From Chloroflexota bacterium (lineage in GTDB: Bacteria > Chloroflexota > Anaerolineae > Anaerolineales > VGOW01): DNA of 64,000 nt. The number at the start of each line of letters is the position of its first letter. Positions within the stretch are counted from its first letter, which is position 1. The position numbers and the translations under genes are program-made. Shown in pieces: positions 22,066 to 61,300 of the stretch. The stretch spans positions 1 through 64,000 of the forward strand of contig JACPWC010000031.1 in assembly GCA_016197225.1 (NCBI GenBank). The letters run 5' to 3'. The notes beneath the pieces are model-generated. The model was not told the DNA's origin. It did not search any database and saw only the letters and a program-made list of their open reading frames with translations.

Positions 22066-22075
22066 GCCACGAAAA

Positions 22076-33913: not shown

Positions 33914-34123
33914 TCATGGTTGAGTGGGTGTGACCGGATACATCTGCTCGAACCAACCGCCGGTAGGCGTGGGCGGCGGGGTGGCAGTGGCGATACGCGG
34001 CGGCACCCAGGCGGTGGGCGTGATGGTAGGCGGGGCCACGACGAAGGCCGCCTGGACGGAGACGGCGACCACCGCGACTCCGACGAGTAGGAGGACAAGG
34101 GCGAGTCGGGTTGAAGTCTTCAT
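33914..34123 (-). CDS. 69-residue membrane-anchored Pro/Thr-rich peptide
   Basis: ATG at 34123 overlaps the stop of the large ATPase gene (ATGA). Hydrophobic segment (8-30), then an outside tail rich in Pro and Thr (APPTITPTAW, ATATPPPTPTGG). It resembles the Pro/Thr linkers of other envelope proteins in this window. Probably a small envelope component; function unknown. Confidence 0.6.
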   Translation of the reverse strand: MKTSTRLALVLLLVGVAVVAVSVQAAFVVAPPTITPTAWVPPRIATATPPPTPTGGWFEQMYPVTPTQP

Positions 34124-42806: not shown

Positions 42807-45662
42807 ATGAGAAATACTACCCGTATCACAGTTTGCCTTCTCATTGTGTTTGTCGACATCTTTTCTCTGACTGGCGTCTCATCTGCGCTTGATTCTGCGC
42901 CCAAATCCAATGTGGAAATTACAACAGAACAACAGGCGGCATGTTGGGGACTGGATTTGATCATCCTGGTTGATCAGTCTTACAGTATGTTTGCGACTGT
43001 GGATGAGAATACAGGGGAATCGCTGACTCCTAGTGACCCTCTTGGTTATCGTTACGAAGCAGTCAAGGATCTTTTAGAAAGACTAATAGACAATCGCTTG
43101 GATGTCTGCCCTGAGGCTTTGCACCGGATCGGCGTCCTTGCTTTCGGCGACACTCCCAAGCCGGTTCTCAGCGATGGCAATGTGCTGACAGATATTGACG
43201 TTACGGCATCTACCGATCTGAACATCTGGCTTCAAGAGTATTTTGAGCGGATTGATGAGGCGGGGAAAGACCGAAGCCAATCCTTGACAGATCCGCGATC
43301 GGCATTTCAGAAAGCGGATCTTATTTTTAGGGAATCGCAAGAGCTGCCGGACCCGCCAAATTACGCGCCACGCCGCCATGCAGTCGTTATGATTACAGAT
43401 GGCACTCCTACTGGCATTGGACAGTTTGATGTTGGCAATTACATGTGTTCGCTGGCACGCGATCTTAATCAGCCCACCTGGAGTGATCGCTCTATTTGGG
43501 TAGTTGCGATGACAGCTGGCGTAACCCAAAGCAACCGCTACTTAGATCAGGTTGGTTGCGGGGAATCGCTAGGTGATGATTGGCGAAGCATTGCCAAGGT
43601 GCATGGGGGTCAGGTAATTGTACAACCGTACAACGAACAGGCTCTTCAAGCATCTATACGAGTGATTGTTGATAATGAGCTAGGCCAAGCGGGTGAGCCG
43701 ATTTCTTGTGGAGAGATTTTTTATGTTGACCCGTATCTTCAGAGTTTACAACTAGTCTTTTTCCGATCTAAAGAACTAACTACTAAAGTGAAGTTAGTAA
43801 AACTGGATGAGCAAGGCAATACTATCTACAAGTTTTCAAACGGCGTTGAAGAACGTCTGGCCCCGGCCCTTCTGGGAGACATGCAACTTTCGAAGTATGC
43901 TGAGAAACGCAACCGCGAGGAAATCGTATTTGATTTCCCCGCGCCTGGTGCATGGCGCTTTGAAGTGGAAAGTTTGAGTACAGAAGAGTGTCAGCGGCGC
44001 TATCAGGCAGTAAAGGCACAGGCGGTAGCTGAAGCAACATTGGGCAGCCCAAAACCGAGTGGCTCAGGATTTCTTGCGCAACAATTCGACGCACCTTACT
44101 ATGACATAGACGATCCTATTCCATTCGTGGTGCGGCTGAAATCCGACAAGGGCGTCCCAATTAAATATGATGATAAGGGCAACTATCCGCTTACCGTTGT
44201 CGCGAATCTCGCCTTGCCTGCCGACGCCCTACTCCCTTCCGATTTTCAAGCTCCAGGTGAAGTCGAATTGTATTATTCTGGCGAGCGAAGCGAATGGAGT
44301 AGCGCACACCCGACAGATCCTTCCAAATCGGTTTACGCCGTTGCGCCAGTCGAAGGCACTTATTCTTTGAATATCACTGGCACTACGGTTGGCGGCAATG
44401 GAGAAATAGGTTATCAGGCATTTAGTCAAACATTAACATATACCGTCAAGAAATTGGAACGCTTTAGCTTTTCAGTTGAGTCGCCTGCAAATGGAGAAAC
44501 GCTCCCATGTAATAACGTGCAAGAGGGACAACTTGTCAACATCCCAATTCAAGTATCGATTCAGGTGCGCGGCGATGACGGAACGCTATCGAGCAATTAC
44601 ATCAACTCCGACCTTGAACAGGCTTTTCAAGCGAAAGCGTTGAATGCGAACGGTGAACCCCTTGGGGTCCCGATTTTTCTAAAACCACAAGGAGACACTG
44701 GCATATTTGTAGCAGAATTGCTTGACGATCAGATCGGCGGCGTAGCCTGTGAGGGGATGCGGGTACAGGTGCAGTTTGTGGGTGGCTATCCAATTGACTT
44801 GTACACCATTTCTGATAAAAAGAAAACTGAAGAGGTCTTTCTGACGCGCTCGTTGATTAATGGGGTTAACGTGAAGACAATTACTCCCTCCGAGCAATCA
44901 ACACTGGCTTTGCACTCAAGTTTTACAAATGGATGCTTAGGTAGTATTCAACCTGTCGAGTTAGAGTTTGTTTTGGAAGACCTAAGTGGTAATCCTCTCC
45001 GGCCCGATGAAGTGAATGCGAGCAGGCTGGAAGATTTGTATAGTATTCGCTTGGTTGGCCCGCAAGATAACGAGCCGGATTTGCAACTCACTACGGTAAA
45101 AGACGGCGACCGCGTGTATTTTATGGCGATGGGTGGGCTGACAGCGGCAGATGAAGGGGCGTATGAATTTGAAATTACTCCGCGCCCCGAGGCATTTGCA
45201 TCAAATTACCTGCCTGCTTATCACCAACCGCGGTTGATCAAATTCGAGCGATACGATCAATTTTGGACGCGGCCATCCACTTGTCAAACATCTCTTGGCA
45301 TCAGCGGGTTTTTGTTGGCGGCTTTGGTGGGAGCAACAATTTATGCATTGACTGGCGGGCCTGGTGGAGCTATCTCCATCGTAGCCCTAGGTAAACCATC
45401 TGATGTCAAGGCAGGGCCGTTCAGACTGGCAACAAGACGCTTTTTCTTAAGGTTGCGCAGGCCACAATTTGCTGAATTTGGGATCAAGGAAATAAAGTAC
45501 CGCAAAGCAACAGGGAGCAGTGGCGAGAAAGCTGTCGCAGTAGACATCATTGGGGCTGCCGGTGAAACTCTGTACACTTATGTGCTGGAAGAAAGCGATC
45601 TTGGTAACCATGTTGAAAACTCAATGCCGCTTCAGGATGAGGCCATTTTGTATGAAAAGTGA
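42807..45662 (+). CDS. VWA-domain membrane protein of the tubulin-like locus
   Basis: 951 residues. Signal peptide (7-28), a von Willebrand A domain (about 48-290) with an intact MIDAS DQSYS (D56, S58, S60) and MITDGTPTG, then long beta-rich Ig-like regions. A transmembrane helix (about 829-852) and a basic cytoplasmic tail of about 95 residues end the protein. The extracytoplasmic VWA presumably binds a partner through a metal ion; the tail could contact the tubulin-like protein encoded 70 bp downstream. VWA genes next to FtsZ-like genes are a known association. Confidence 0.75.
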   Translation: MRNTTRITVCLLIVFVDIFSLTGVSSALDSAPKSNVEITTEQQAACWGLDLIILVDQSYSMFATVDENTGESLTPSDPLGYRYEAVKDLLERLIDNRLDVCPEALHRIGVLAFGDTPKPVLSDGNVLTDIDVTASTDLNIWLQEYFERIDEAGKDRSQSLTDPRSAFQKADLIFRESQELPDPPNYAPRRHAVVMITDGTPTGIGQFDVGNYMCSLARDLNQPTWSDRSIWVVAMTAGVTQSNRYLDQVGCGESLGDDWRSIAKVHGGQVIVQPYNEQALQASIRVIVDNELGQAGEPISCGEIFYVDPYLQSLQLVFFRSKELTTKVKLVKLDEQGNTIYKFSNGVEERLAPALLGDMQLSKYAEKRNREEIVFDFPAPGAWRFEVESLSTEECQRRYQAVKAQAVAEATLGSPKPSGSGFLAQQFDAPYYDIDDPIPFVVRLKSDKGVPIKYDDKGNYPLTVVANLALPADALLPSDFQAPGEVELYYSGERSEWSSAHPTDPSKSVYAVAPVEGTYSLNITGTTVGGNGEIGYQAFSQTLTYTVKKLERFSFSVESPANGETLPCNNVQEGQLVNIPIQVSIQVRGDDGTLSSNYINSDLEQAFQAKALNANGEPLGVPIFLKPQGDTGIFVAELLDDQIGGVACEGMRVQVQFVGGYPIDLYTISDKKKTEEVFLTRSLINGVNVKTITPSEQSTLALHSSFTNGCLGSIQPVELEFVLEDLSGNPLRPDEVNASRLEDLYSIRLVGPQDNEPDLQLTTVKDGDRVYFMAMGGLTAADEGAYEFEITPRPEAFASNYLPAYHQPRLIKFERYDQFWTRPSTCQTSLGISGFLLAALVGATIYALTGGPGGAISIVALGKPSDVKAGPFRLATRRFFLRLRRPQFAEFGIKEIKYRKATGSSGEKAVAVDIIGAAGETLYTYVLEESDLGNHVENSMPLQDEAILYEK

Positions 45663-45731
45663 TGCTGACCGCCAAGATGGTAGTTGGCAATCTACTACTT
45701 TACAATCCACATCATTTTAAAGGAGAAAACC

Positions 45732-48700
45732 ATGTCAAGACCTGGATTGATCATTGGACTGGGTGGTACTGGCCAGTGGGTACTAACCTGGCTTAAGCGC
45801 GATCTTCTTTTGTCGAATAGCGGGCAGATGCCCAAAACATTACGGTTGTTGGAATTCGACACGGCCAGGCGCTTAGAAGCTACGGCTACTCGCATCACCG
45901 AGCGCGGCGAGAAGGAAGAAGCGGCTGCTGTGGGCGGAGTAATGCTTGATGCAATGGAATTCATCCATATTGGCGGCAATGCCTTAAGCATGGTGAAAGA
46001 TATGGATGAAAAAGGGGCCTACCCGCAGATTCGCAAATGGTTTAATGCTGAAACTTGGCTGCGAACCCAAACTCAGGCAACGTTCAATCTTGACGAAGGC
46101 GCCGGACGGTTGCGGCAATTCGGGCGGCTGGCAATTTACAAGGATGTGCTAGGTGGCGAAGTTAAATCAGTAATCTGGCGCGCATTGGTCAACGCCATGG
46201 AGGGCGTTCGCGCAAGCGCCACCCAACAACACCCTCTGGAGATCATGTTAGTCGGCTCGTTTGCCGGGGGCACTGGCTCTGGCACATTTATCGATATGGC
46301 CTTGATTCTGCGCCTGCTGGCCAACAAATATCACATTCCGCACGTCATGCGCGGCATTTTCGCCCTGCCGAGCGTGTTTACTACCCAACCTACGGATGAC
46401 ATGAAAGCCCGCTGTTTCGCGGCCTGGCGCGAGCTTAATCGGTTTATGGTGGTAGATGAAGAGTTCTCGATGCCGGAAGTGGCTTACATTGAGAACAATC
46501 AGAATTTTAGCGTGCACCCTAATCAACGCCTTTTTGATGCCTGTTATCTGGTTGATGGGCGACGGAACGGCCAACCGTTGACAGACGAAGCCAAGACCGG
46601 CGTTTTTCCTATGCTGGCCGAGGCTATCAGCGCATTCTTAGACGAGAACGCTGGAACAGCATATTCGGAATGGATCTTGACAAATCTGGCAACCGAGTAT
46701 GCAAGGACTCCCAACCTGCCAATGTACAGCGCCATTGGCGCGTTTACCGTTCAAGTACCGGCCTACTTTGTCGTCGAAACATCACGTCATGCGCTGGCCC
46801 AGAACATTTTGCTCCAACTGCTTAGGCCTCAGCGTGAACCGGACTCGGAAGGGCGTCTGTCAGCAGGCGATGCCGGGAGGTTAATGGCATTGGCGGCGCC
46901 TGACAAAAACGGGGAAGATCCGGGATTCGCCGGTCGATCGCGAAGTGGAAACCTGTTTACTGAAGGCATAGATTCCAATGACCAGATAGAAAAACCGTCT
47001 GTGTTCCTGCAGCGCGTCGGGCAACTAATAGTTGACAACAAGGAGAATCAGAAAAAGGTTGCCAACATCAGCCGTGTCGCAAAAGCAGGCGCTGCGGCTT
47101 CTAACGAGGCCGCCGCACGTGATGGATGGCTGGGCTATTTTGTGAACTTTGGCCTGGATCAGGAGCTTGTCCAACTGCGCAAAGATATTGAGGAGAATCT
47201 AAACGTTGTTATCCCCAAGCGTTACGGAAAAAGTGATGACAAAGAACCAGAGGATGCCCGACGTGCTCGGTTGAAGAAAATTTCAGAGGATATGCTCAAG
47301 CTGTTTGGAGCAGTTAAATCTTCCGGCGAAGCGGAATATGGCGCGACTGGCAAGTTGCTCGGGGAAGTTACCCGTACTCAGCTAAGATTTTTCCAACGAT
47401 TGGTTCGGTCCCGAGTCGCAAAAATGCTGATGGGTCGCTCTGAGGAGAACATCCTTGTCTCTCGAAGTGGCAAGCTGGGCTACACCTATGATTTTTTCGA
47501 TGGCGCAGTTAAGCTACTCGACGAAGCACTTGAATTTATGGAAGCTGTTCGCGCCGAACGTGAGCGGATGACTCCAGAAGCCAAGTTGGCCGGGCTGACA
47601 CAACAAGCGCAGAAGATGCTCACCGAGAGCATGGGCAAGAAATTATTTTGGTTCTGGGAGCATCCCGATGTTCTTAAGTCCGAGCAGGCCTATTTGCAGG
47701 CACAACAGCGCACAATGCAGTTGCGCCGCGAGGAAGTGATGCACGTGTTCGTAGCCGAAACTCTGCGCCAGATGAAAGAAATCTGCGTTGAGGTGCGCGA
47801 TGCCCTGCAACGTTGGATCTGGCACCTGGCGACTGGCGACGATGCCAGCGGCCTGCCGGGACTCTGGGAAGGCGTGCGTGCCAGCCTTGAGGAAGTTCAC
47901 GTTGCGCACGGTTACGACAAAACGGCAACGAAGGTACAAATGATTGTGGCTGAGGCAACTATTCCGGCTACCGATGCCGACCTTGAGCGCGCTCTGCGAC
48001 AATGGGAGTGGGAAGCATCATTTGAAGGTGCGCCCTCCAAGTTCAGCCTACAAGCCCGCATCCGGGCTGAAGCGGTGGACAGGGAGGACAAAGACCTGCG
48101 CGACCCTGCGGGTGGGGCCTCGAGCCAATTGCGGCGCGAAATCAGCACGACCAACCAATCTGCCCTGTTGGAACTGGCTGGCCGGCGCTTTGTTGGTGTC
48201 GCTGTGGCCACAACTGTTGCTGATCAACTGAAGAGAATATACGGATCTTCACCTCGGAAGCTTGCTGAAGAAGTCGCTGAAGTGAGCGCCAAACCGCTAT
48301 TTGAGGGGCCGACAGGCGCCAACCCGCGTAAACAAAGCAATCTTATCCGCATCATGGCCGACCCTAATGATCCCTTCTTTACAGGCGAGAACGGCCTGGA
48401 AGGTATTTTGCGTGGCCTACATCAGCTGGACAGGCTTAAACGCGGGGACACCTATGCAATTCAAGTGGTCGGTTCTGAAAATCCATACAAGATGACGCTG
48501 GTGCGCACGGACGACTTGTACGCCTACGATGCATTTGATGCTTGGACACAAAGCCTCGCTTCGTATGACCAGCACCGGAAGAACCGAGAACTGCTGGATC
48601 CGGTGCTTATGCACAACTTCGCCGCCGAAGCCAATGCCGTTGGCTTCGAACGGCGTATTCAACGCAAGACGTTCAAGCCCCTGCACCCGCGGGTTGTGAT

Positions 48701-49271
48701 GATCATGGAAGACCTCAAGGCCGTGCGGCAATTCGTTTATCTTGGCATGTTAGGTTATATCAAGGACGACGCGGCGGGACGCCTCTACAAGTGGGATTTG
48801 AGTTGGGAGCAAAACGGCCGCAAACGTGCATTCTGGCTCACTCGTGGCTGGGATGCCGAACGCGATCAGGGTCGCCGCGTCAAACCCAGTCTGCTTACTG
48901 CATTGCATGGGTATGCCATCAAGCGGGTCAGCCAACAAGAAGACCAGGATACTCCCATTGACTTCGAATTTGCCGAGCGGCTCATCAACGGCAAATTGCA
49001 GGAGTTGGGCCCGCAAGGTGAGGTTGAATTGCTGGAAGACAAAGGCCTGGGGTTGGTGGAATTCTTGAATGTAACGGCCTATGAGTATCCTGACGACAAG
49101 GGAGGGTTAAGGCCCGACTACGCCGACCTGGCCGATTTGGCCGTGGTACTGGAGATGATGATCAGTGATTGGGTGGCGGATGCTAAGGAACGGACTAGCC
49201 GCACCGCCACCCTGGGCGAACAGGGTAATCGCCCAACAAGCCCTTTCGGCGGGCGAAAGAAGAACGAGTAA
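45732..49271 (+). CDS. Tubulin/FtsZ-like GTPase (tubulin_2 type) with long C-terminal extension
   Basis: 1179 residues from the ATG at 45732, with AAAGGAG 8 nt upstream. N-terminal G-rich loop IIGLGGTGQ (7-15), LLEFDT, then the tubulin signature VGSFAGGTGSGTF (174-186), which keeps GGTGSG intact. The FtsZ/tubulin-like domain covers about 1-390 and includes the PMYSAIGAFTVQVP block. Residues about 400-1179 are mostly helical, with no named domain. It is probably a GTP-dependent cytoplasmic polymer. It matches the FtsZ-like families linked to VWA proteins and proposed to remodel membranes. Confidence 0.75.
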   Translation: MSRPGLIIGLGGTGQWVLTWLKRDLLLSNSGQMPKTLRLLEFDTARRLEATATRITERGEKEEAAAVGGVMLDAMEFIHIGGNALSMVKDMDEKGAYPQIRKWFNAETWLRTQTQATFNLDEGAGRLRQFGRLAIYKDVLGGEVKSVIWRALVNAMEGVRASATQQHPLEIMLVGSFAGGTGSGTFIDMALILRLLANKYHIPHVMRGIFALPSVFTTQPTDDMKARCFAAWRELNRFMVVDEEFSMPEVAYIENNQNFSVHPNQRLFDACYLVDGRRNGQPLTDEAKTGVFPMLAEAISAFLDENAGTAYSEWILTNLATEYARTPNLPMYSAIGAFTVQVPAYFVVETSRHALAQNILLQLLRPQREPDSEGRLSAGDAGRLMALAAPDKNGEDPGFAGRSRSGNLFTEGIDSNDQIEKPSVFLQRVGQLIVDNKENQKKVANISRVAKAGAAASNEAAARDGWLGYFVNFGLDQELVQLRKDIEENLNVVIPKRYGKSDDKEPEDARRARLKKISEDMLKLFGAVKSSGEAEYGATGKLLGEVTRTQLRFFQRLVRSRVAKMLMGRSEENILVSRSGKLGYTYDFFDGAVKLLDEALEFMEAVRAERERMTPEAKLAGLTQQAQKMLTESMGKKLFWFWEHPDVLKSEQAYLQAQQRTMQLRREEVMHVFVAETLRQMKEICVEVRDALQRWIWHLATGDDASGLPGLWEGVRASLEEVHVAHGYDKTATKVQMIVAEATIPATDADLERALRQWEWEASFEGAPSKFSLQARIRAEAVDREDKDLRDPAGGASSQLRREISTTNQSALLELAGRRFVGVAVATTVADQLKRIYGSSPRKLAEEVAEVSAKPLFEGPTGANPRKQSNLIRIMADPNDPFFTGENGLEGILRGLHQLDRLKRGDTYAIQVVGSENPYKMTLVRTDDLYAYDAFDAWTQSLASYDQHRKNRELLDPVLMHNFAAEANAVGFERRIQRKTFKPLHPRVVMIMEDLKAVRQFVYLGMLGYIKDDAAGRLYKWDLSWEQNGRKRAFWLTRGWDAERDQGRRVKPSLLTALHGYAIKRVSQQEDQDTPIDFEFAERLINGKLQELGPQGEVELLEDKGLGLVEFLNVTAYEYPDDKGGLRPDYADLADLAVVLEMMISDWVADAKERTSRTATLGEQGNRPTSPFGGRKKNE

Positions 49272-49337: not shown

Positions 49338-50036
49338 ATGGAAGGTTCTTCAGTATTGGGGTGGGTTTTAGGATTCTCAAGCCAATTTGTTGGGGGCTTG
49401 CTTCTATTGCTTCTCGAATACCATATTTTCCATCCGCGTCACAATCAATTTATCGGAACCCCGCCACCTGCACCTAACCCGATGCCAGAGCGCAAAGTAA
49501 CATCTTATCCGGTGCCAGCTTTCTTGCTGGCTCTGGGTTGCTTGAGTATTGGCGCGATGTTGAAAACTGATGACAAGATCGGAATAGTTGGGTTGTTGAT
49601 TTCGGCAGTAACACAAATAGGATTGCTTATATTGGCAGTTTTCTTTGGGCTGAACGCCATATTCCCTGTATCAGGTACTGCGGGCATCGTTACCGGTATT
49701 GTCGTTGCAGCGGTGTTCATAGATCGCCATGTTGATGCGTTAATTGGCCAATTATTGCTCGAACGGCCATTGTTCAGCGGAGTTGCAGGGATCATTTATT
49801 CTTTTGCAATTATTCCGCTGGCTAACCGATTGCTGGATACGCACTCTGTCGGGCTATTGACATTTCTGCTTACTTGGATGAGCTCCATGACACTGTGGGA
49901 TGTATTCCTTTCTGGGAATATTCTGGTCTGGATGGAGTGGTGGTCGGTCGGGGTTACGTTGGGCCTGTTGCTAGGGGTTATGTTGTTGCCAACACACTTT
50001 CACAACCTGCTCATCAAGTTAGGAATGGATCCATAA
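49338..50036 (+). CDS. Seven-span membrane protein
   Basis: 232 residues. Hydrophobic segments at about 5-27, 58-78, 85-103, 112-128, 140-160, 172-190 and 200-222. No family recognised. It sits between the two tubulin-like genes, 66 bp after the first and 31 bp before the second, so it probably belongs to the same complex, perhaps as the membrane target of the polymer. The ribosome binding site is weak. Confidence 0.6.
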   Translation: MEGSSVLGWVLGFSSQFVGGLLLLLLEYHIFHPRHNQFIGTPPPAPNPMPERKVTSYPVPAFLLALGCLSIGAMLKTDDKIGIVGLLISAVTQIGLLILAVFFGLNAIFPVSGTAGIVTGIVVAAVFIDRHVDALIGQLLLERPLFSGVAGIIYSFAIIPLANRLLDTHSVGLLTFLLTWMSSMTLWDVFLSGNILVWMEWWSVGVTLGLLLGVMLLPTHFHNLLIKLGMDP

Positions 50037-50067: not shown

Positions 50068-53000
50068 ATGGCTTGTTATTGTCGCTATCGGGTGACTATG
50101 TGTCGTTTGCTCGCGTTCATGGTGAGCGCCGCATTGCTCATGGCCGCTTTGCCTGCGCCCTTTCAAGTAGTCTTCGCGTCCACACCTGCCCCGACTACCC
50201 CACTGCTTCAGACACCGACGATTACTCCTGTTCCCTTACCATTAACGGTTGCGCAACCGGCGATTGATGACGTGGTGTCCGTTGGCAGAATCCAAGCAGA
50301 ACCCAGTCAGCTCGTTCCGGGGCGTTTGGCGCAAATCAGCTTGACTTTGAAAGGGGAACAGGTTGGAGGGTGTTACGGAATCCCACAACGGGCGCTTGAT
50401 GTGGTGCTGGTAGTAGATAACTCCCCCAGCGCGGGTACCGACGACCCCGGCTCTAATCTGGCTCAAACGTGCGCCAATCTGAGCAATTTTGTGGCGCAAA
50501 CTGATCAAGATGTTATATCACTCGATCCTACGACCTTTGTGCTGGAGTGGCTCAAAGATCCTCAATCTCCGCCGACATCCTCCACGCACTCCCGCATAGC
50601 AGTGCTGGCCTGGCGTCCCTCAGGAACCTTCTATCTGGACACCCTCACTGAGAATTATAGCCAGGTGTATTCTTCGCTCGACAATCTGCAACCCGGCGGT
50701 GCCGCTTCTTTAGCCGAAGGTGTGCGTTTTGCCTTGAGCCACCTGAATGAATCAAAACGCCCTTCAACTATCCCGGCGATTGTGCTGGCGGTTCATTCCG
50801 CTCAAGGGTTAGACGATCAGTTTTCACAATCTCTTACAGAAGCGCAGGCCCAGGGTGTTCAAGTGTTTGCGTTCGTTGAAACTCGGGGCATTGTGAACGG
50901 CGTCGAGCCATTAACGCCGAACACACTTTATCCATCGATGGCTCAATCACAAGTCATAGAGACGTTTTCGGCGCAATCGCTCCGCCGGGTTTTTGTGCAA
51001 ATGACGGGTGGAATACTGGAGGATAGCGTAGCCCAGGATATTTACGTTGCCTCTCTACCTTTTCCGGCAGACGCCGCCACCGTGGAAAGTGTCGATTTTG
51101 GCTTGCCAATACGGAGCTTGAATGCCGCTGTCTGGCGGAAGGCCTCTCTAAAGGATGGAGAGACCGTTGAATTGAATTACGAAATCTCGGTCAACGCCCA
51201 ACAAAGTTTGCCTGCCTTATCGCTCAACACATTTATCTTTCACTTGGACTGCAACGGGTACCGGAAAGTCAAGCCGGATAGCCAGTTGCTTTTACTCAAA
51301 GAAACCTCTACTCCCACTGTCACACCCACACCAATTGCCTCCACTCCTGCGCCTCTGACGCCTTCTCCAACATCCACGCCAACGATTACGCCTACCCCTT
51401 TGCCGGACATTTATCCCGAATGGGGCGGTAGGGTGACAGCCCACGTGCCCGAGGAAGTGAGTCTTGAATGTCCGCCGTCCGCCGCTACTGAACCGACCTG
51501 GATAGATATTCGCCCCGAAGCCAACCCTCCGCCGCACCCTGGCCATGAACCGATCGGAGAAGCGTTTACTATCCAAGCCAATCTAGGCAATGACTTGCCC
51601 GTTACACACTTTAATGAGCCATGTGTGTTGTATGTCAGTTTACCGGACAATGATCCGCGAGTGCAGGCCGGCTCGCCAATTGACTTGTTTTTCTGGGATG
51701 AGTCCCTACAAACCTGGATCTTAATTCCTTCAACCCGAGTCGCGCCGAACTTGCTAATCGCGGAAATCGACCACCTGACCCTGTTTATGATGAGGCAGGC
51801 TCAGCCGACCGTTACTCCTTCTATCACTCCCTCGTTTTCACAAGCTACTCGCCCGCCTCCGGCGCTTTCAGCGACACCTGCGCCTTTTGACTCTACCGGG
51901 CCGACCGGGCTACCGCCTTCGACATCGTCGCCGCCAACGTTGTCCGGCCCGCCTGGTTGGCCGCAGGTCGTTTCATTTTTCGAGGCTTTCGGGATGAATT
52001 TGGCTGGCCTGAGCGTGGCTGGACAGTGGATTCTGTGGGCTATCATCATCTTGCTAGTAGTCGCTTTACTGATTTTATTGGCTTACTTGTTGTATCGGTG
52101 GTGGCACGGACGGCGACAACCACCCGTTCCTGGCCCGCCTGAATCGCCACTGATGCCCCATCCACCGCCACCCCCGTTACTTTTTCCGGAGACTATCGTG
52201 TCCTGGATTAAAAACTTGACCACTAACAATCGCTTGGAACTTGAATCTCTTACTAGCGACTCTGCTCAATTGCAGGATACTGTTTTAATTGGCATTGGCT
52301 CAGCCGGGCGCGAAGTGTTGAGCCAGATTGCCGAAGCGCTCAATGCCCGCTTCGGCGTTCAATGGCCGTCCAATGTCCGCTTGCTGCAGATTGATATTCA
52401 GATACCGGGTGAAAAACTGGAGCCGCCGCGCGGATTGGGAGTGGGCCAATTTGTAGCTCTGACTCCTGACTTCCAGAAAGTTGAGCAAAGTTTGAATGAC
52501 TCTGACTGGCCCGTTCATTGGGAATGGTACCGCCGCGCCGCGCCGGATTTTGGCCGGGCGCGAGGCCGTCTGGCCCTTTTCCATGACCTGCGCGATGGCC
52601 GGAGTGGATCCAAGTTGTGGGGCGCATTGGAAAGAGTGTTTCAAGGACTGCCGTCGCCGACTACGCGGGTATTTAGCGCCGCGTTCGATGACGCGGGCAG
52701 TGGCATGCTGGTTGATCTTATTCATCTGATTCAATTGGCGGCAACCCGGTATGTGCCGGTGCAGTTGTGGCTGGCCGCGGCGTTTACCCGTGACTGGCCG
52801 GGGCGTCTGTCAGAACGCAATCGCCCTTTGCGCCCCGACGAACAACGCGAACGCATGCTGGCGACTTTGAGTGAACTGGAGCGTTTCCAGCGCAATGAGC
52901 GGGTGGAGTTCAACTACGTGCCGCCCAATCATCCTCAAAGCCAACTTCGTCAGACTCGTGAGCAGGCGCTCGTCGAAACGCTGTTCCTGTTTGAGATGCG

Positions 53001-54777
53001 CGATCGGACCACGCCCGAGGGCGATGTGCTGGCGGCAATGGCTGATGGCGCTCTGGCTCTGCTAATCCCGACCGCACATCAATTGTTGATGGATACTTTG
53101 AACCGCCGACGGAGTGATACGACTGCCCGGATTATGAAGGAGGGGCAGGGTTTTGTTTGCGCGCTGGGCAGTTGCGCCCTGCGTATCCCGTCGGGCGCAC
53201 TCACCCGGGCCCTGGCGGCGCGCATGGTGCGTGACTCGCTGTTTGAATTGGGCATTGGCCTGTTGCCGGTGGAGCAATGCGATTTGCCCACCGGCAAGTA
53301 TCGGCAACTGGAAGAGGATGTGGAACTGGAGAAGCTTACGGGCAAGCAATTGCTTGACGAAATTGAGGCCCTGCTCAAGATTCATCGCCACCGGTTTGGC
53401 GAACCGGCGTTTGCCGAGAGAGTAGGCCAGCGCGTGAGCGAGTTGCTAAACGGCAGTTGGCAGAAGAGCGGAAATGATTTCAGCCGCCGCCGCAAGGGCT
53501 TGGCGCAGGCCGCAAAATGGTTGGAACAACTTCTCAAACGTTTGGATAGTAGCGTGCCGCTGTCCACTCGCAACGGTATCAAAAAACTGCTCGACGAGAT
53601 TGGTGAATGGGATGTTTTTTTGCGGAACACACTGTACCCGGTTTGTGCGCAGAATTTGGAGGCGGCACAGAACGACCTGGAACGCTTGCGCCGGCAAACG
53701 GCCCGCGATTGGGTGATAGATGACGATCTGGAATGGCGCACTTATCGCCGCAACATCCGCGCGTGGGATGAGCAGGCCGGTGAGACGACCAGCCCGCTAT
53801 TGCGCCTGGCGGCCCGGTTCGGCTGGGACGTGCATGATGGCCAGGTGCGCTTTCTCATCCCGCCCGGCGCATTTATCTGGCAAGAAGATATGGCTCCGGC
53901 ATTGAATGAGTATGCCATGCAACGTAACGTCAGGCAAATATTGGACTCCCTGATGCCACTGACCGAGGCCCTGGTACACGTCCATAGCCGCCGCCCCGCG
54001 CTTGAATTTGCTCAGAACCGCGATCTGGCTCGATGGATCGAAAAGGCCAGGCCGCGCTTACAGTATAACGATGCGGTGGGCAGTGACTGGGTAACGGCAA
54101 AGTTGGACCTGCTGGTGGCGCCTGAATCGCCGGCCGCAACCCGCCTGCAACAAACGATGCAAACTGAAGCGCAGATCAATAATTTGCTCTTAGCCAGCCA
54201 TGCCGATGCCGACCCGGATGCCGTGACCTTGCTCCGGCTTGAGGGCTGGATACCTTTAGATAAGGTCGAACTCTACAGCGATTCGGCCTGGCTGGGCCAG
54301 ATGATACCCGCGCAACAGTATGTATGGCCGCCGGAACAGCGAATAGCCGCGGTCACGGGAGGAGTTGGGCGGCCCGGTCCAAACCTGTTGCGTTGGTTCG
54401 CCATGGACGCCGATCTCATTGAACTGCTGGGGCTGGGCCTGCTCTATCAAGTTTTCGAGCAGACAGAGAAAGGGTTGGTCTTCGTTGAAAGTCAGCCTGA
54501 TGCCAAACACGTGGTAGATGACGCCGGCACATTGGCGCTGGCTCTGGAAGCCATTTACAACCTACAGCCGCCGCACCTCTGGCGCGCCGACTCCGCCCTG
54601 CGCCGCCGCGCGAAACAGGTTATGGAAGCCAAACGCCGCGACATGGCCCGCCAGCGCACTGTGCATCTCAATCAGATGTCTCGTATCCTGATCGAACCTT
54701 TGGTCAATAGCCAACAGGCCGTTGAGCAAGAAATTGGCATGTTCTTGCGCGCTTTGAAAGCAAAGGAAACCAGTTAA
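50068..54777 (+). CDS. VWA-transmembrane-tubulin-like fusion protein
   Basis: 1569 residues (a start at 50098 is also possible). Signal segment, VWA domain with DNSPS MIDAS-like motif (D117), a Pro/Thr linker (about 410-445) and a beta domain. A second Pro/Thr/Ser linker and a strong transmembrane helix (about 655-676) follow. The cytoplasmic half begins at about 737 with DTVLIGIGSAGRE and LLQIDIQ. It then parallels the product at 45732 step by step: GRLALFHDL for GRLAIYKDV, FDDAGSGML (873-881) for FAGGTGSGTF, and GFVCALGSCALRIP for PMYSAIGAFTVQVP. The G-box is degenerate, so GTP hydrolysis is doubtful. It looks like an inactive membrane-bound partner of the active tubulin. Confidence 0.7.
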   Translation: MACYCRYRVTMCRLLAFMVSAALLMAALPAPFQVVFASTPAPTTPLLQTPTITPVPLPLTVAQPAIDDVVSVGRIQAEPSQLVPGRLAQISLTLKGEQVGGCYGIPQRALDVVLVVDNSPSAGTDDPGSNLAQTCANLSNFVAQTDQDVISLDPTTFVLEWLKDPQSPPTSSTHSRIAVLAWRPSGTFYLDTLTENYSQVYSSLDNLQPGGAASLAEGVRFALSHLNESKRPSTIPAIVLAVHSAQGLDDQFSQSLTEAQAQGVQVFAFVETRGIVNGVEPLTPNTLYPSMAQSQVIETFSAQSLRRVFVQMTGGILEDSVAQDIYVASLPFPADAATVESVDFGLPIRSLNAAVWRKASLKDGETVELNYEISVNAQQSLPALSLNTFIFHLDCNGYRKVKPDSQLLLLKETSTPTVTPTPIASTPAPLTPSPTSTPTITPTPLPDIYPEWGGRVTAHVPEEVSLECPPSAATEPTWIDIRPEANPPPHPGHEPIGEAFTIQANLGNDLPVTHFNEPCVLYVSLPDNDPRVQAGSPIDLFFWDESLQTWILIPSTRVAPNLLIAEIDHLTLFMMRQAQPTVTPSITPSFSQATRPPPALSATPAPFDSTGPTGLPPSTSSPPTLSGPPGWPQVVSFFEAFGMNLAGLSVAGQWILWAIIILLVVALLILLAYLLYRWWHGRRQPPVPGPPESPLMPHPPPPPLLFPETIVSWIKNLTTNNRLELESLTSDSAQLQDTVLIGIGSAGREVLSQIAEALNARFGVQWPSNVRLLQIDIQIPGEKLEPPRGLGVGQFVALTPDFQKVEQSLNDSDWPVHWEWYRRAAPDFGRARGRLALFHDLRDGRSGSKLWGALERVFQGLPSPTTRVFSAAFDDAGSGMLVDLIHLIQLAATRYVPVQLWLAAAFTRDWPGRLSERNRPLRPDEQRERMLATLSELERFQRNERVEFNYVPPNHPQSQLRQTREQALVETLFLFEMRDRTTPEGDVLAAMADGALALLIPTAHQLLMDTLNRRRSDTTARIMKEGQGFVCALGSCALRIPSGALTRALAARMVRDSLFELGIGLLPVEQCDLPTGKYRQLEEDVELEKLTGKQLLDEIEALLKIHRHRFGEPAFAERVGQRVSELLNGSWQKSGNDFSRRRKGLAQAAKWLEQLLKRLDSSVPLSTRNGIKKLLDEIGEWDVFLRNTLYPVCAQNLEAAQNDLERLRRQTARDWVIDDDLEWRTYRRNIRAWDEQAGETTSPLLRLAARFGWDVHDGQVRFLIPPGAFIWQEDMAPALNEYAMQRNVRQILDSLMPLTEALVHVHSRRPALEFAQNRDLARWIEKARPRLQYNDAVGSDWVTAKLDLLVAPESPAATRLQQTMQTEAQINNLLLASHADADPDAVTLLRLEGWIPLDKVELYSDSAWLGQMIPAQQYVWPPEQRIAAVTGGVGRPGPNLLRWFAMDADLIELLGLGLLYQVFEQTEKGLVFVESQPDAKHVVDDAGTLALALEAIYNLQPPHLWRADSALRRRAKQVMEAKRRDMARQRTVHLNQMSRILIEPLVNSQQAVEQEIGMFLRALKAKETS

Positions 54778-54863: not shown

Positions 54864-56483
54864 ATGACTGATCTGACCCAAAATTCCTCTGTCCATTTAC
54901 AGCCCGGCGCTGAACTTCAGGGTGAGAACGGCGCCTATGTCGTCGAGCACTATTTAGGCGAAGGGGTGACGGCGGTTGTGTATTTGGCTCGCAATAAAGT
55001 GACGAGCGAAAAGGCGGCCCTCAAAGTGCTCCGGTTGGATGCAAGCGAAATCTCGGTGCGGAATTTCTCGGAAGAAGGCCTGATTTTGGGTAGCCTCAGG
55101 CTGGAAGGAACCAAAGCCGTGCCGCTCAAGTTAGACCAACAGAAAGGTTCCCTGCCAAACTTTATGGTGTTGGAGTTGGTGGATGGCAAGGAATTCCCTT
55201 CACTGGATGAACTGGAAGATAACGGGGTCTTGCCAGAACTCGAAGGGCTGGAACTGGCTGAGCAGGCGCTGGAGGTCCTGGACCGTTTGCACACCGGGCT
55301 TCGCCGCACTTACACCGACATGCAATTCAAAAACTTCTGCTGGAATCGCGAAAGACGCCAGTTGAAGGTGATGGACTGGAATCACGTTAGCGCCGGGTAC
55401 CGTGACCCGGACGATGCCGAGTTTATTGCTTTGCGCCGCCAGGACCTCGCCCGGTTTGCCTCATACATATATCGGTATCTGACTGGGAAACTTGCCCGCG
55501 ACCAGGGCACAACCGCCCGCGCACTGGAAAAACGGGCCGGGGACCGGTGGAGCGCACTTTCTGCCGGGACACGCCAACTCCTGACCCAGGCCTTGCATCC
55601 TAACCCGGCCCGACGATATGCTTCGGCCAAGGACTTTTTGCTGGCTGTAAAAGAACAGCACGGTTTATTAGGAGAGTGGTCAGATGATCTATTCCACGAA
55701 TATCCCGAGAGATTTAAACGCTTGTTGCAGGAAGCGGAAGTTGAATGGAAGCGCGATCTATCGCCTGACCCGACGCAGGCGCTGGAGAAGGCAAAGTGGC
55801 TGGCGCTCGATGAAGCCGAACGGTTGCTGGACGCCCTGGCCCGCCACGATGTTTGGGATCGGGAAACGCTGAATCGTTACCAAGCCCGGTTGCAAAAGAT
55901 TTTGGAAGGCGAAACGGCCACCTGGGTGGTGGGCCGCCGCCACTACAACGTTCAACAATATGCTGAAGCGGCCAATAGTTGGGAGCCGGAAGCAAAAGCA
56001 CGCGGGCATATCCATTTGTGGCGATGGCTGATGTTGGCGCGGGCTGGAGCAGAGATGGGTCAACAATTCGAACCCATCCGCCCGGGACTGGAGAGCGTGA
56101 TTGCCGCTATGAAAGGCGAACGCTGGGACGAGGCTCGGGACGTTTTAGAAGCCCTGCACTCAACCGGCCTGGCAGGCAATTCTGCCTCTATTCAGACATT
56201 GCGGGCTGAAACGAACGCTGTGCTAAAGGCGCAGACTGCCGCAGTCAAAGAGTCAAGCCAGCGCGTGGAGGACTGGCAAGCCGCCCTCGATGATTGGCGC
56301 GAAGTAGAAGCACAAGGCGCATATATCCCTTACTGGGATTTGCTGAAGGAAGAACGTGATTGGGCGAAATTGCCTGACCATATTGCTGAATTAGACCGCA
56401 AGATACGGGATCGTCGGGCGCGATTGTCAGATCGCAAATCGTTAGTAGAGGCTTTAGAGAACTACCTGAACGGTATTGATTGA
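54864..56483 (+). CDS. Atypical Ser/Thr protein kinase with helical C-terminus
   Basis: 539 residues, ATG with CGGAGA upstream. Kinase-like fold at about 20-265. Gly-loop LGEGVTAVVY (31-40) and the ATP Lys in ALKVL (K54) are present. The catalytic loop TDMQFKNF gives D152 and N157, and D171 in MDWNH stands in for DFG. The key catalytic residues are there but HRD and DFG are replaced, so activity is possible, not certain. Residues about 270-539 are helical, TPR-like, and rich in Trp and Glu. It is cytoplasmic, between the second tubulin-like gene and the coiled-coil gene. Confidence 0.7.
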   Translation: MTDLTQNSSVHLQPGAELQGENGAYVVEHYLGEGVTAVVYLARNKVTSEKAALKVLRLDASEISVRNFSEEGLILGSLRLEGTKAVPLKLDQQKGSLPNFMVLELVDGKEFPSLDELEDNGVLPELEGLELAEQALEVLDRLHTGLRRTYTDMQFKNFCWNRERRQLKVMDWNHVSAGYRDPDDAEFIALRRQDLARFASYIYRYLTGKLARDQGTTARALEKRAGDRWSALSAGTRQLLTQALHPNPARRYASAKDFLLAVKEQHGLLGEWSDDLFHEYPERFKRLLQEAEVEWKRDLSPDPTQALEKAKWLALDEAERLLDALARHDVWDRETLNRYQARLQKILEGETATWVVGRRHYNVQQYAEAANSWEPEAKARGHIHLWRWLMLARAGAEMGQQFEPIRPGLESVIAAMKGERWDEARDVLEALHSTGLAGNSASIQTLRAETNAVLKAQTAAVKESSQRVEDWQAALDDWREVEAQGAYIPYWDLLKEERDWAKLPDHIAELDRKIRDRRARLSDRKSLVEALENYLNGID

Positions 56484-56497
56484 CGAGGTTCAAGAAG

Positions 56498-58324
56498 ATG
56501 AAGAATCAAGTTGATGCCCTTACACAATTAGAGCAGGCGTTAGAGCAGGATCCAGTTAACAACTTATTGCTTCAGTCTTGCCTTGATATGGTTAGGCCTC
56601 GCCTGGCTGAAAATGATTCTCCGAAATTGCTGAAGCGCGCGGCGGCGATGTTGGAAATATGTTTGCGTTTTGGCAATGGCCTGGAAAGCGAACTAAAAGA
56701 GAGCTTGACTGAGGCGCGTAGACGATTGCGCGATCATGCGGACGCCGAGTTCGCCGGGCCTGTGCTTGACTTGATGGAGCAAGCAGAAAAACAGGATGAG
56801 TGGGGTGCTCTTCGCGCTCAGCAAGGGCGTTTGCCCGCCAGCGTCCGCGACCCAAATGCCCGAGGGAGACAAACTCGGGCCGCTCGTGAGCGTTACAAGT
56901 CTCTGCTCGACAGGCTGGTCACTCGCTACCAAAACGCGCTGGCCGAGAAAAACCTGAATCAGGCCAAACTGCTATTCGACACATTGGAAGACCTGCAGTC
57001 AGATGCAGCCCGCCGGGACTCCCTTGAACGCCTGATCAAGGAAAAGGAAAAGGAGCACTTGCGGTTGACAACTGAGTTGCAGACCCTGCATAGAGAACTT
57101 GATAATAAGAACAGCCAATATCAGGGATTGGCTGTTGAATTGCAGGCACTGAATTACCAGACTGATCGCGCGAAGGCAGAGCGCGATATTAATCTCAAGC
57201 TCGACCATGTTGCCCAGGACTTGCAAACCCTAAGGGAGATTCGTGAGCAACCACAACAGATAGAGGTAGTCCCAGACCCTATCGTGAAGCGCGAAATAGG
57301 ATCTCTGACTCAGAAGGTCTCGGAGTCCACCTGGCTACAAAGGATCCTCCTAGGTTTGGCGGCAGTGATCTTGCTGGGGCTGGCAGTATTGTCGTTTCTA
57401 AGCATACAACAGACACGTAACCTGGCCGCGCTCAGCCAACCCACTGCAACAATTGCAACTACAACCGGACTAGCCCCTCAGAGCGAGGCCATTGCTACTA
57501 TGTCTGCCGCTGTGAACAGCATAGGCACACAAATCGCTCAACTGCAGGCGCTTCCCACGACGGCGCCGCCGACCTTGACCCCATTAGGTACTCCGCCGCC
57601 TGCCCCTCAGGTCCTCAATCTACGAGCGGAATTCGTTCCTGGCCGCCTATATCTACCGCTCGCCCCTTACTACGATTTGCCGCCGGTGCAGATCAGCGCT
57701 CCAACCTTTACTGGGATTCAACTCACCAAGGATGATTCTTCGGGCGCTCTGCTGGTCTCCGGTGCCATAGACGGACAACTACGTCTCTTGCTAGAAAATG
57801 CAGAAGGCAAGTATTGGGTAAGCGATTCTGGGGGGATTAGCGACGTGCCTTTCGAGTTGAAAGGTGAGTTTCAGCAAGAGATCTCCGGTGAAAACGGCAC
57901 TTCGACGCCATCTGGCCAGTATTTCTGGGTGCCTGACCAAACCGAGAAGCCAATTCTGATTGGGGACTACACACTTTGGCTTCAGGTTACTAATAATGGA
58001 GAAGTAATAGCCCAATTGCCCTTAGCTTTGGCTATTGTGTCTTTTTCTGAAGATAGACTCGTGGTTGTAGTTGAAGATGCGGGTTTTTATAGCTCTCGTG
58101 AACCATCTAATATTGATTCTACTAAAATACCGAATTATCCGTATGAGCCACGAACGACAATATTCGGAGTAATCGGAAAAACAAACATAAACAATATTGA
58201 ATACGTCAAAATCATGCGTGATGGTAAGCGTGAGTATGTTTGGATAAAACCAGTTAATGCACTACTTGTTATGGGCAACAAACAAAATCTATCAACAGAG
58301 AACATTCCTACCTTGAACCCGTAA
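56498..58324 (+). CDS. Coiled-coil membrane protein with SH3-like C-terminus
   Basis: 608 residues from the ATG at 56498 (a TTG at 56480 overlapping the previous stop is the alternative). A helical N-terminus (1-150) and a coiled coil (about 150-250) lead to a transmembrane helix (about 279-302). A Thr/Pro linker, a beta domain (about 370-510) and an SH3b-like end follow (about 515-600, FYSSREPSN ... GVIGKTN ... EYVWIKPV). The kinase-side coiled coil would be cytoplasmic and the SH3-like part outside, perhaps wall-binding. The last 120 codons are distinctly AT-rich, which suggests exchange of this tip. Confidence 0.65.
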   Translation: MKNQVDALTQLEQALEQDPVNNLLLQSCLDMVRPRLAENDSPKLLKRAAAMLEICLRFGNGLESELKESLTEARRRLRDHADAEFAGPVLDLMEQAEKQDEWGALRAQQGRLPASVRDPNARGRQTRAARERYKSLLDRLVTRYQNALAEKNLNQAKLLFDTLEDLQSDAARRDSLERLIKEKEKEHLRLTTELQTLHRELDNKNSQYQGLAVELQALNYQTDRAKAERDINLKLDHVAQDLQTLREIREQPQQIEVVPDPIVKREIGSLTQKVSESTWLQRILLGLAAVILLGLAVLSFLSIQQTRNLAALSQPTATIATTTGLAPQSEAIATMSAAVNSIGTQIAQLQALPTTAPPTLTPLGTPPPAPQVLNLRAEFVPGRLYLPLAPYYDLPPVQISAPTFTGIQLTKDDSSGALLVSGAIDGQLRLLLENAEGKYWVSDSGGISDVPFELKGEFQQEISGENGTSTPSGQYFWVPDQTEKPILIGDYTLWLQVTNNGEVIAQLPLALAIVSFSEDRLVVVVEDAGFYSSREPSNIDSTKIPNYPYEPRTTIFGVIGKTNINNIEYVKIMRDGKREYVWIKPVNALLVMGNKQNLSTENIPTLNP

Positions 58325-58334
58325 GGTGGCACCT

Positions 58335-61300
58335 ATGGCAACTAACAAACGCGAAGTCCTGCTTCGAGCCATCCAAACCCGAATCAAAGTTGTCCCGGCG
58401 GACGACGACCGGACCTTTGACGAGCTTGACAGCATCAGGTCCGAAGTCAAGCGTTGGGACGGGGATGGCGAGCCGCCTCAGGCCGCCCGCTTGCGCGAGC
58501 TGGGTGTGGAAGTGGACGGCACAAGCGATGTGCCTCCTCCAAACCAACTACTCCTCTCCAAATCCGACCTGGACCTCATCGAGAACGGCTTTCGTAACCA
58601 GTTGGACAACGCCTCTTCGGAAGAGCATCGCGGGGAGTTGCGGCGGGTGCGCCAGGCCGTCAAGGGCTGGGCGGCCAGCGAGCAAAATGGGCCTCTGCCC
58701 TTTGCCGACCAACTCGCCGCCTGGGGCATCTGGCCGCCCGCAGGCCCGGAACTTGGCCTACCAACACCCGATGCTCTTCCTGAAGCGGATCAACCGACAA
58801 AACCCGAAACGCCCCCCGGCCCCGACCCGGACGACGCTCTGCGGCCCGAGTACGACCAGGCGTTGGCCTTGTTGGGCAACGAACAGTATTACGAAGCCGC
58901 CAAACGGTTGAAGTCCCTCAGCCTGCGCGCGCGCGCAGGGTTGCTAACCGAACTGGAGCGCAAGCTGACGCAGGCCGAAACCGAATTGAAGAATCTCGAA
59001 AACCGGCTCATTGCCGAAGCCGAGCAGGTGTCCAAACGTTATCACGAAAACTTTGACCGGCAACAGGCCGCCTGGGAAAAAGTCAGCGATGTCAATCCCG
59101 GTTCGGCCCGCGCCGAAACGGAACTCTATGCCTTGAGCCAACGGCGCGCCCAGCGCGAAGTCGGCAGAGCCTTGCGCGATTGGGAAAAGGAACTGGACCG
59201 GGCAGTCAAGAGCGAGGATTTGTCCGCCATAAACACCATGCTCGGCGAGGTAAGCGGGCAACAAATTGATGACTCCTTGTTGACTGACGAGCTTCAGCAA
59301 CAACGCTCACAGTTTAAGCGAACCCTGTTGGAACAGCAACGACAGGTGCGAAAATTATTGGGAGTCGCCAGTACGCGGGTGGTGCAAGAGGATTATCTCG
59401 GCGCTTACCTCAACGCCCGCCAGTATGTCGAACGTGGCACAAAACAAATCTACGACGAAAGTGGAGCTTTTGGCGGCGGCCTCATCGAGACCTTGTTTTT
59501 CTTTGAGAAAGTATCTGAATTGCTCCTCGACTCGTTGCGGACCAAGGCCGATGAACGCACGCGTCAGGCGCGAAGCGAACGCGAGAACAACCCGACCCTG
59601 GCGCGCCGGACGCTGGAAAACGCGTTGGAATTGCTGAATGCTAAAGGCGCGCTCACTCAGGATCACGCTAATGCCCTGCAACCGTCGCGGGAAACAATCG
59701 AACACGAACTTGGTCTGGTTGAAACCGCCCAAAACCGCTACGACCAGGCTGGGCAAAAACTGGTGTCCGCTCAACAATCTGACGATATGACCGAGCGGCT
59801 AAACCTTCTCGCGGCCGCCGCTGAATTGTTTCCCAATTACCCCGGCCTGAGGGAGGCTGAAGACACTGCCCGCTCGGTGCTGGCCAGCCGGGTGAGCAGT
59901 GAGGTGGCTTCGGCCATCCTCGAAGCGCGGCTGAAGGCCGAGGCGGAGTCGTTTGAGGAGGCCCTCAACCTGATCAGCGCCAAACGCGAGATGGCGTTGC
60001 GGAAGCCCGTCGCCAGCAAGGCATTCATTGAATCTCCCTGGCCGCCGCCCGGCTCGCAACTTGAGCAAACTCTGGGCGCGCTCGAACAGGCGGCCCGAGA
60101 CATTACCAACAACCAGCGGGCTTACAACACCATGCAAGAGACGCTGGCTGAAGCCGACCGGCGCATTGCCCAGGGCACGCCAGAAGATTTAGAGTACACC
60201 GCCAACTTGCTTGCGATCCTGCCAAAGACGGCCCTCGAGCATAAGCGCGCGCTCGAAACTCAGGCCCGCCTGGCCACTAAACGCGGTGATCAGGCCAACT
60301 GGGAAGAGGGCAACCGCCATTACCGGCTTCAGCAATGGCAGTCGGCTGAAACCGCGCTTCAACGGGTGGCGCAGGGCGCGTCCAGCCAAAAGGATGAGGC
60401 AACCCGCCTGGTCGGGCGCATTCAGGCAGTGTTGCAAATGGAGGCGGGGCGGGCCGCCGAAGACCAGCGCGAATGGGGCAAGGCCTTAAGTCACTACCAA
60501 ACCGCCGCTCGCGGGTTTGTCGAACATGGCGCGGATGAAATCGTTCAGGCGACGCGCGATCAGGCCGAGCAAGCGCTAAAACGCCTCGAACCGCTGGAAG
60601 CCAACGACCGCCAGGCGCGCAAAATTCTCAAACAGGCCAGCGCCGACTACGAGAAACTGCTCGCGCTCTCGCAGGCTCGCGAAGCGATGCGCCTGCCGGA
60701 TAAAGTCCGCCCTCTGAGCGACTTCGCCAACATGGTTGCCGGCCTTGAACAGGTTGCCAAGGGTATGTCAACCCTGAATAAAGAGGCTGATCAATTGTTG
60801 AGCGACACTCTGGAACTGTGGCGCAAGACCTACGTGGCCGGGATGCAAGCTGCGCTGGGTTGCGAGAATGACGAGATACTAACCCGCGCCCTGAAATTGG
60901 CCGGCGAACTGCATCCGCATGGCCTGCTGTATCGAACCGAAGACATGCGCCTGGCGCGCGATTTACATCTCGAATTGCTTGACCTGCGCTATCAAACCCT
61001 GATGTCGGCGGCGGAGCGAGACTGGCTGGCGGTTGAAGACAACCGCAAGCAAAAGCTGGATACTCTCCACGCCCGCCCCAAGGAGGTTGTAGCCGAATTG
61101 CAAACCGCCCAGCGCGGGCGCATTCGGGCCGAGACGAACCGCCGTGAACGAACGGACGCCAAAGACGCCCAACGCTATTTGGAAGGGGCCGCAGAAGACT
61201 CGCTCAGCATCCGGTCCGACCCCCAGCTCATCCAGCTCCTGGTGGAATTGTGCTGGCGCAACCAGGACTGGCTCGCCGCCGAACGCGCGACCCGCTATTT

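Follow-up and report, generated by a model that had tools for sequence, protein, structure and literature searches.

FtsZl1 proteins, the Tubulin_2 family of Pfam (PF13809), are a large and little-characterised branch of the tubulin superfamily. According to the main text of Makarova and Koonin (2010), FtsZl1 has an N-terminal FtsZ-like domain, a coiled coil and a helical C-terminus, and shares operons with a VWA protein, a Ser/Thr kinase and membrane proteins; the T6-H7 region and the C-terminal domain could not be identified, filament formation was posed as a question, and neither a degenerate second paralogue nor a VWA-TM-tubulin fusion is mentioned in that text (PMC2875224). One of the reviewers, Jekely, objected that a cytoplasmic FtsZl1 could not touch VWA proteins on the outside (PMC2875224). 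A second relevant group is formed by the GAP1-N2 systems of Firmicutes, which have two coiled-coil tubulin-domain genes and two VWA genes with one VWA outside the membrane, as is also the case at the locus described here; the sections that describe these systems mention neither an inactive tubulin nor a fusion (PMC7159879). We report an operon of the FtsZl1 kind in which a second tubulin-like protein has lost its phosphate loop and is joined, through a single transmembrane (TM) helix, to an extracytoplasmic VWA domain. It lies in the window, by which we mean the whole stretch of 64,000 nucleotides that was analysed, from a Chloroflexota bacterium; features are on the forward (+) strand unless marked otherwise.

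The operon opens with a gene for a 951-aa VWA protein (42807..45662) with a signal peptide, a single TM helix close to its C-terminal end (aa 830-848), a sub-threshold match to PF13519 (7e-4) and a MIDAS motif reading DQSYS, whose position matches that of the corresponding gene in related operons. It is followed by the active-type FtsZl1/Tubulin_2 gene (45732..49271; 1179 aa), the frame of which opens at 45684, the ATG at 45732 being preferred with AGGAG upstream. Its product matches PF13809 at 1.2e-39 (137 bits against a gathering score of 27) and carries both the T1 glycine loop LIIGLGGTGQWV (45747..45782) and the T4 phosphate loop FAGGTGSGTF (46260..46289), as expected of Tubulin_2. Between the two tubulin-like genes sits a gene for a 232-aa multi-TM protein (49338..50036) that has no Pfam match, belongs to no family and is not present at this place in the most closely related locus, L082. 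The fusion gene comes next, and then a Ser/Thr protein kinase-like gene (54864..56483; PF00069, 6.3e-11), a kinase following the pseudotubulin in related operons too; the catalytic Asp is kept, DFG reads DWN as it does in the kinases of loci L085 and L087, and the HRD loop is divergent (YTDMQFKN, 55311-55382). Two further genes are probable members of the operon by their position, one encoding a coiled-coil protein of 614 aa that has a single TM helix and weak SMC/coiled-coil matches (56480..58324) and the other a 1503-aa helical repeat/coiled-coil protein of no family (58326..62837). FtsZl1, VWA, kinase and membrane-protein genes thus occupy one neighbourhood, as in the FtsZl1-VWA systems of 2010, although the distinct GTPase of those systems was not found in the window operon.

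The fusion gene (50068..54777) runs from an ATG start for 1569 codons and encodes, in order, a signal peptide, a VWA domain, Pro/Thr-rich linkers with a beta-rich region, a TM helix and a pseudotubulin. A hydropathy scan identifies a signal-peptide-like hydrophobic segment at aa 9-27 and only one TM helix, at aa 654-672 (52027..52083), and the Arg/His-rich residues directly after this helix place the C-terminus, with a cytoplasmic half of 870 residues, inside. The VWA domain (aa 111-269; 50398..50874) matches PF00092 at 4.7e-5, barely above the gathering score; the DxSxS part of its MIDAS is present as DNSPS, and within VLAVHSAQGLDD (50782-50817) a His replaces the usual Asp of the (S/T)DG part, whereas L082, like most of the other fusions, reads LLSDG at this place and so retains the Asp. 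Between VWA and TM, the beta-rich region (aa about 450-590; 51415-51837) appears ZU5-like by eye, and stretches like it are present in other large proteins of this genome and its relatives. The single membrane pass and outside VWA of the original prediction are borne out. In the nearest relative of the fusion, encoded by L082 of Anaerolineae bacterium CHL1, one ORF contains both VWA (5e-17) and Tubulin_2 (6e-11), each over its Pfam gathering score, which settles the architecture independently of the window. With an outside VWA and an inside FtsZ-like protein in one chain, the fusion also meets the objection raised by Jekely.

Recognition of the cytoplasmic half as a tubulin homologue depends on the sensitivity of the method. 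The match of PF13809 to the window fusion is sub-threshold (aa 739-780, 3.9e-5, 23.5 bits, the cut-off being 27), whereas the L082 orthologue reaches 42.6 bits. Alignment with hhalign of a fusion-type profile (8 sequences) to an active Tubulin_2 profile (12 sequences) gives an E-value of 1.3e-80 over 843 columns; the closest clade alone (window, L082 and L014) gives 7.8e-37 and the window sequence singly 1.2e-15, against 0.36 for a reversed sequence and 0.065 for the neighbouring kinases as negative controls. Having missed the Pfam cut-off yet matched so strongly at the profile level, the pseudotubulin is a divergent Tubulin_2 paralogue and not a canonical member. With the same three sequences, the similarity extends over both parts of the protein: the N-terminal domain (about aa 735-1063; 52270..53256), which also has the support of a structural model and match, gives 1.2e-33 when aligned alone, and the C-terminal part gives 6.1e-9 against that of the active copy, the helical region and C-terminal domain together spanning 53257..54774. 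The tubulin landmarks noticed at the outset are all at their expected positions, namely the partly kept T1-equivalent VLIGIGSAGREV (aa 739-750; 52282..52317), GRLALFHDL, the T4-equivalent FDDAGSGML (aa 873-881; 52684..52710) and VCALGSC at aa 1030. With FDDAGSG in place of GGTGSG, the view that the locus encodes two tubulin-superfamily paralogues, one of them with its phosphate loop gone, is upheld. A PDB sequence search with the active and the degenerate profile returned no tubulin match, and relatedness is visible solely at the level of profile-profile comparison and structure.

Structure prediction had been proposed as a test of the tubulin fold of the fusion, and its outcome is tubulin/FtsZ, at moderate confidence. 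The AlphaFold2 (AF2) model of the pseudotubulin, computed for aa 715-1569 with active copies excluded from the input alignment, has a mean pLDDT of 60 and a pTM of 0.49; its best Foldseek match is Staphylococcus aureus FtsZ (6e-4), and the top 50 rows from VIA-align are all of the tubulin superfamily with Z-scores of 15-18 (CetZ 18.1, gamma-tubulin 17, TubZ 17, FtsZ 15). About 300 residues are aligned, over model residues 21-720, with low pLDDT towards the end of this range. The model of the active copy, made from 43 sequences, is considerably firmer (pLDDT 86, pTM 0.83) and aligns with CetZ at a VIA Z of 24.6 over 310 residues at 3.2 A. As the aligned range is 18-970, active FtsZl1 is predicted to be a complete FtsZ/CetZ body whose two halves are separated by an inserted helical, coiled-coil segment of some 390 residues, the stretch of the active gene concerned being 46824..48002 by AF2 secondary structure. 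The active copy resembles the FtsZl1 of 2010 in its domains, and the model places after the helical insertion the C-terminal domain that, like T6-H7, was not identified in the main text at that time (PMC2875224). The FtsZl1 fold, with a complete FtsZ/CetZ body where the earlier description missed the second half, can now be tested. The model also bears on whether FtsZl1 forms filaments, without proving polymerisation.

PF13809 is found in 65 of 298 genomes of the class, many of which have two adjacent genes, and a fusion-size ORF or confirmed fusion occurs in 9 of these 65. A contig scan of genomes contributed a further 78 named loci, found with an alignment of active copies and thus through an intact GGTG loop. 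Active/degenerate pairs are widespread in Chloroflexota and Cyanobacteria, and in nearly all of them the degenerate gene comes immediately after the active gene; the usual order is VWA, active tubulin, pseudotubulin, kinase, and in the window and its relatives VWA, active tubulin, VWA-pseudotubulin, kinase. Some operons (including L085 and L087) have no second copy and none was detected in several other phyla, so the pair is frequent, not universal. The VWA-TM-pseudotubulin fusion is clear at 14 loci (the window, L014, L016, L062, L063, L064, L082, L089, L090, L092 (=L018), L093, L095 (=L065), L117 (=L017) and L174), a further fusion, in L099, being ended by the edge of the locus and left outside this count. 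Named hosts are Anaerolineae and other Chloroflexota, except that L089 comes from a MAG labelled cyanobacterial. The distribution is patchy, since those congeners of the window genome that were searched lack the fusion, and an A4-profile search across the phylum added few cases. Four fusions (L090, L093, L117 and L092) reach 2000-2300 aa, which makes them very large tubulin-like proteins spanning the envelope; outside they carry a CAP (cysteine-rich secretory) domain, VWA in one or two copies, a CxxCH segment and a WD40-like propeller. A 3513-aa ORF (L174/G579) that seemed to unite the two tubulin copies was rejected as a fusion, as a scaffold gap of 100 N joins two genes there. We also note that in Anaerolineae SSC4 the second copy (L020 8684-10830, or L084 14039-16185) is broken into a number of short, overlapping frames, reflecting a frameshift, decay or sequencing errors.

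The pairing is reduced to its core in Nostocales, where only VWA, active tubulin and pseudotubulin are constant; the pseudotubulin scores 0.0034 at best in Pfam, and 5.8e-12 by profile comparison, with a reversed control of 0.33. This small core bears on the possibility that the operon is a GTPase/VWA-type conflict system for defence, in which an invader signal would trigger assembly of the tubulin-like proteins. Tubulin-domain genes do accompany VWA genes in the GAP1-N2 GTPase systems of Firmicutes and Actinobacteria, two of them in Firmicutes, in the part of the account that covers these operons (Kaur et al. 2020, PMC7159879). However, GAP1 and TRAFAC GTPase genes were not matched among the seven operon proteins scanned, which separates the locus from GAP1-N2 systems, no known effector was identified in the window operon, and PADLOC and NCBIfam searches of the operon yielded nothing beyond generic kinase and weak coiled-coil matches. 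We consider a defence role very unlikely.

GGGTG(S/T)G is the loop that binds the phosphates of GTP. In the window fusion two loop glycines are replaced by Asp and the Thr by Ala, and with an Asp-Asp pair where the phosphates are contacted, nucleotide binding should be prevented in this copy. The loss is general, GG(T)G(S/A)G being retained in none of 45 second copies. All 41 active copies retain GGT, a figure that is partly by construction because the scan used that loop; the count of second copies alone escapes this effect. An Asp or Glu occupies the first T4 Gly position in 27 of 32 unfused second copies and in 5 of 13 fusions; in 7 of the 13 the first loop Gly is kept and the Thr is replaced by Phe or Met. 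On a tree, at least seven changes of the acidic state and four of loop loss are needed. Core residues have meanwhile been kept in the unfused copies (the Glu250-equivalent in 30/32, Gly and Pro of strand S7 in 30/32 each, Asp59 in 25/32), as befits maintained proteins that are diverging rather than decaying. The Asn334-equivalent, present in 39/41 active copies, is found in 6/13 fusions and 2/32 unfused copies, and is gone in both the window and L082. The expectation that homologues would lack a normal G-box holds for the nearest ones, which read FDDGSSG (L082) and FSDDSSA (L014), and falters at a related fusion clade that keeps GGFGSG, one residue off normal, together with an intact T1. This clade, and the partly kept T1 of the window copy, would accord with an altered loop to which a nucleotide, or some other phosphate ligand, can still bind in at least part of the family. 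We regard this as highly improbable, given that the two Asp residues of the window loop should repel phosphates and that unfused copies typically show an acidic substitution; judged from its residues, the GGFGSG clade itself might still bind nucleotide.

Phylogenetic reconstruction (74 rows, loop columns excluded) pairs the window fusion with L082 (support 99), near L014 and the unfused copies of L015, L019 and L081. A separate clade (support 100), nearer to some active copies, comprises the fusions that carry a propeller. A single clade of all VWA fusions is not rejected (p-AU 0.31), although the free tree splits them; grouping all second copies together is rejected, if marginally (p-AU 0.043), with long branches present, and the second copies may not derive from a single duplication. 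Distances between active and degenerate partners correlate (r 0.88 for 26 pairs, r 0.76 for fusions only, with 0/5000 permutations reaching these values in either case), a correlation that is also raised by co-inheritance, since whole operons share descent.

From these observations we think, with some reservation, that the fusion is probably a membrane-anchored, nucleotide-blind partner subunit of the upstream FtsZl1, coupling the outside VWA to FtsZl1 polymers. The active copy would bind GTP and polymerise, and the degenerate copy, having no GTP cycle, would offer a constant tubulin-like surface and grip the end or lattice of the active polymer, thereby tethering it to the membrane. Ligands are bound by VWA domains in general, frequently by way of a metal, and here the domain would sense or grip something in the envelope or surroundings, the kinase would tune the link between VWA and polymer, and the whole would constitute an integrin-style transmembrane connection from an outside ligand to an inside cytoskeleton. 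Polymerisation, nucleation and anchoring by the tubulin pair are all putative, and we infer physical contact of the two tubulin-like proteins from the pairing of their genes; a gene-fusion argument for contact is provided by the VWA, which has a gene of its own in operons where the second copy is unfused and shares one chain with the pseudotubulin at 14 loci. Counting against such a partner are the missing MIDAS residue of the window VWA, the loss of the Asn334-equivalent, the GGFGSG kept by a related fusion clade and the moderate confidence of the pseudotubulin model. The same anatomy would fit a degenerate copy that acts as a brake or decoy, binding FtsZl1 subunits at the membrane and capping or blocking polymerisation until the degenerate copy is itself released by the kinase or by a ligand of the VWA domain, much as SulA and MciZ inhibit FtsZ; the absence of a nucleotide site, joined in the window protein by that of the Asn334-equivalent, is something that a chain-terminating subunit could afford. 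We nonetheless think this unlikely, as one degenerate gene per active gene in the operon would suggest a stoichiometric partner instead of a trace inhibitor. The "membrane seed" of the original prediction goes further than the data, an anchor, a cap or a regulator being equally allowed. Extending the anchored partner of FtsZl1 beyond this locus, we tentatively suggest a two-subunit prokaryotic tubulin system, found over Chloroflexota, Cyanobacteria and others, in which one subunit is stripped of nucleotide and wired to a surface VWA; in such a system the acidic loop residues may mimic bound phosphates.

What process the pair serves is a separate matter. Ordinary FtsZ is encoded separately elsewhere in the genome, and cell division therefore need not be the job of the tubulin pair. 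The sole experimental lead that we found is from Synechocystis, where Sll0445, a member of Tubulin_2, was seen to co-fractionate with Sll0446, Sll0447 and the pilus proteins Slr2015 and Slr2018, and where mutants of sll0445, sll0446 or sll0447 are each impaired in phototaxis (PMC9880817); sll0443-0449 are listed as one CRP-controlled unit, like slr2015-2018 (PMC2633013). In the window, a Tad/type IV pilus-like locus (7880-32931, - strand) lies about 10 kb from the tubulin operon, a linkage known from the window alone, and includes a T2SSE ATPase (30366-31619), a MinD/CpaE-like protein (31624-32931), a prepilin peptidase (21637-22128) and small TM proteins (7880-8823), all on the - strand. Its genes form a separate block on the strand opposite to the operon. 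These data make a pilus or motility role a serious rival as regards the biological process. That the operon is specifically a trans-envelope accessory of motility or a type IV pilus-like machine, with the tubulin pair as its scaffold or switch and not a device for membrane remodelling or a general cytoskeleton, strikes us as quite unlikely, and such a role is in any case compatible with anchoring, as it addresses the process more than the mechanism. Within the pilus-like region we also observe a gene for a giant secreted protein of 3210 aa with a signal peptide (10958-20587, -), and beyond it a 1207-aa protein without a Pfam match (34123-37743, -).

In the natural fusions it is the degenerate tubulin subunit that meets the membrane, and they indicate that an outside VWA and an inside tubulin belong to one complex. 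That active and degenerate copies recur as partners, the degenerate one being hard for Pfam to detect in many genomes, is now open to testing, and if our interpretation is true, a tubulin subunit that gave up GTP for a membrane-receptor role would represent a new mode of polymer anchoring or control. In alpha/beta-tubulin each of the two subunits binds GTP, and there, as in BtubA/BtubB, the GTP-binding loop is kept in both. The pair described here would, as we infer, resemble these in consisting of two paralogous tubulin-superfamily subunits, but differs in that one subunit lacks the GTP loop and is attached to the membrane. An alpha/beta-tubulin-type split, in the form given by the original prediction, is accordingly not supported, the loop signature of a GTP site being missing from one subunit and the second copies perhaps having more than one origin. 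In its proposed role of tethering a tubulin-family polymer to the membrane, the fusion is comparable to FtsA, ZipA, SepF and EzrA, none of which, to our knowledge, has a tubulin fold or an outside VWA domain. The literature searched, which lay mostly outside subscription papers, preprints and the 2010 supplement, yielded no description of the fusion, of a regularly inactivated partner, of an acidic loop or of a complete fold. To that extent the original view that no such architecture has been described stands, although the class of system has been known since 2010 (PMC2875224, main text) and tubulin-domain gene pairs beside VWA genes appear in the account of GAP1-N2 systems (PMC7159879, in the relevant sections).
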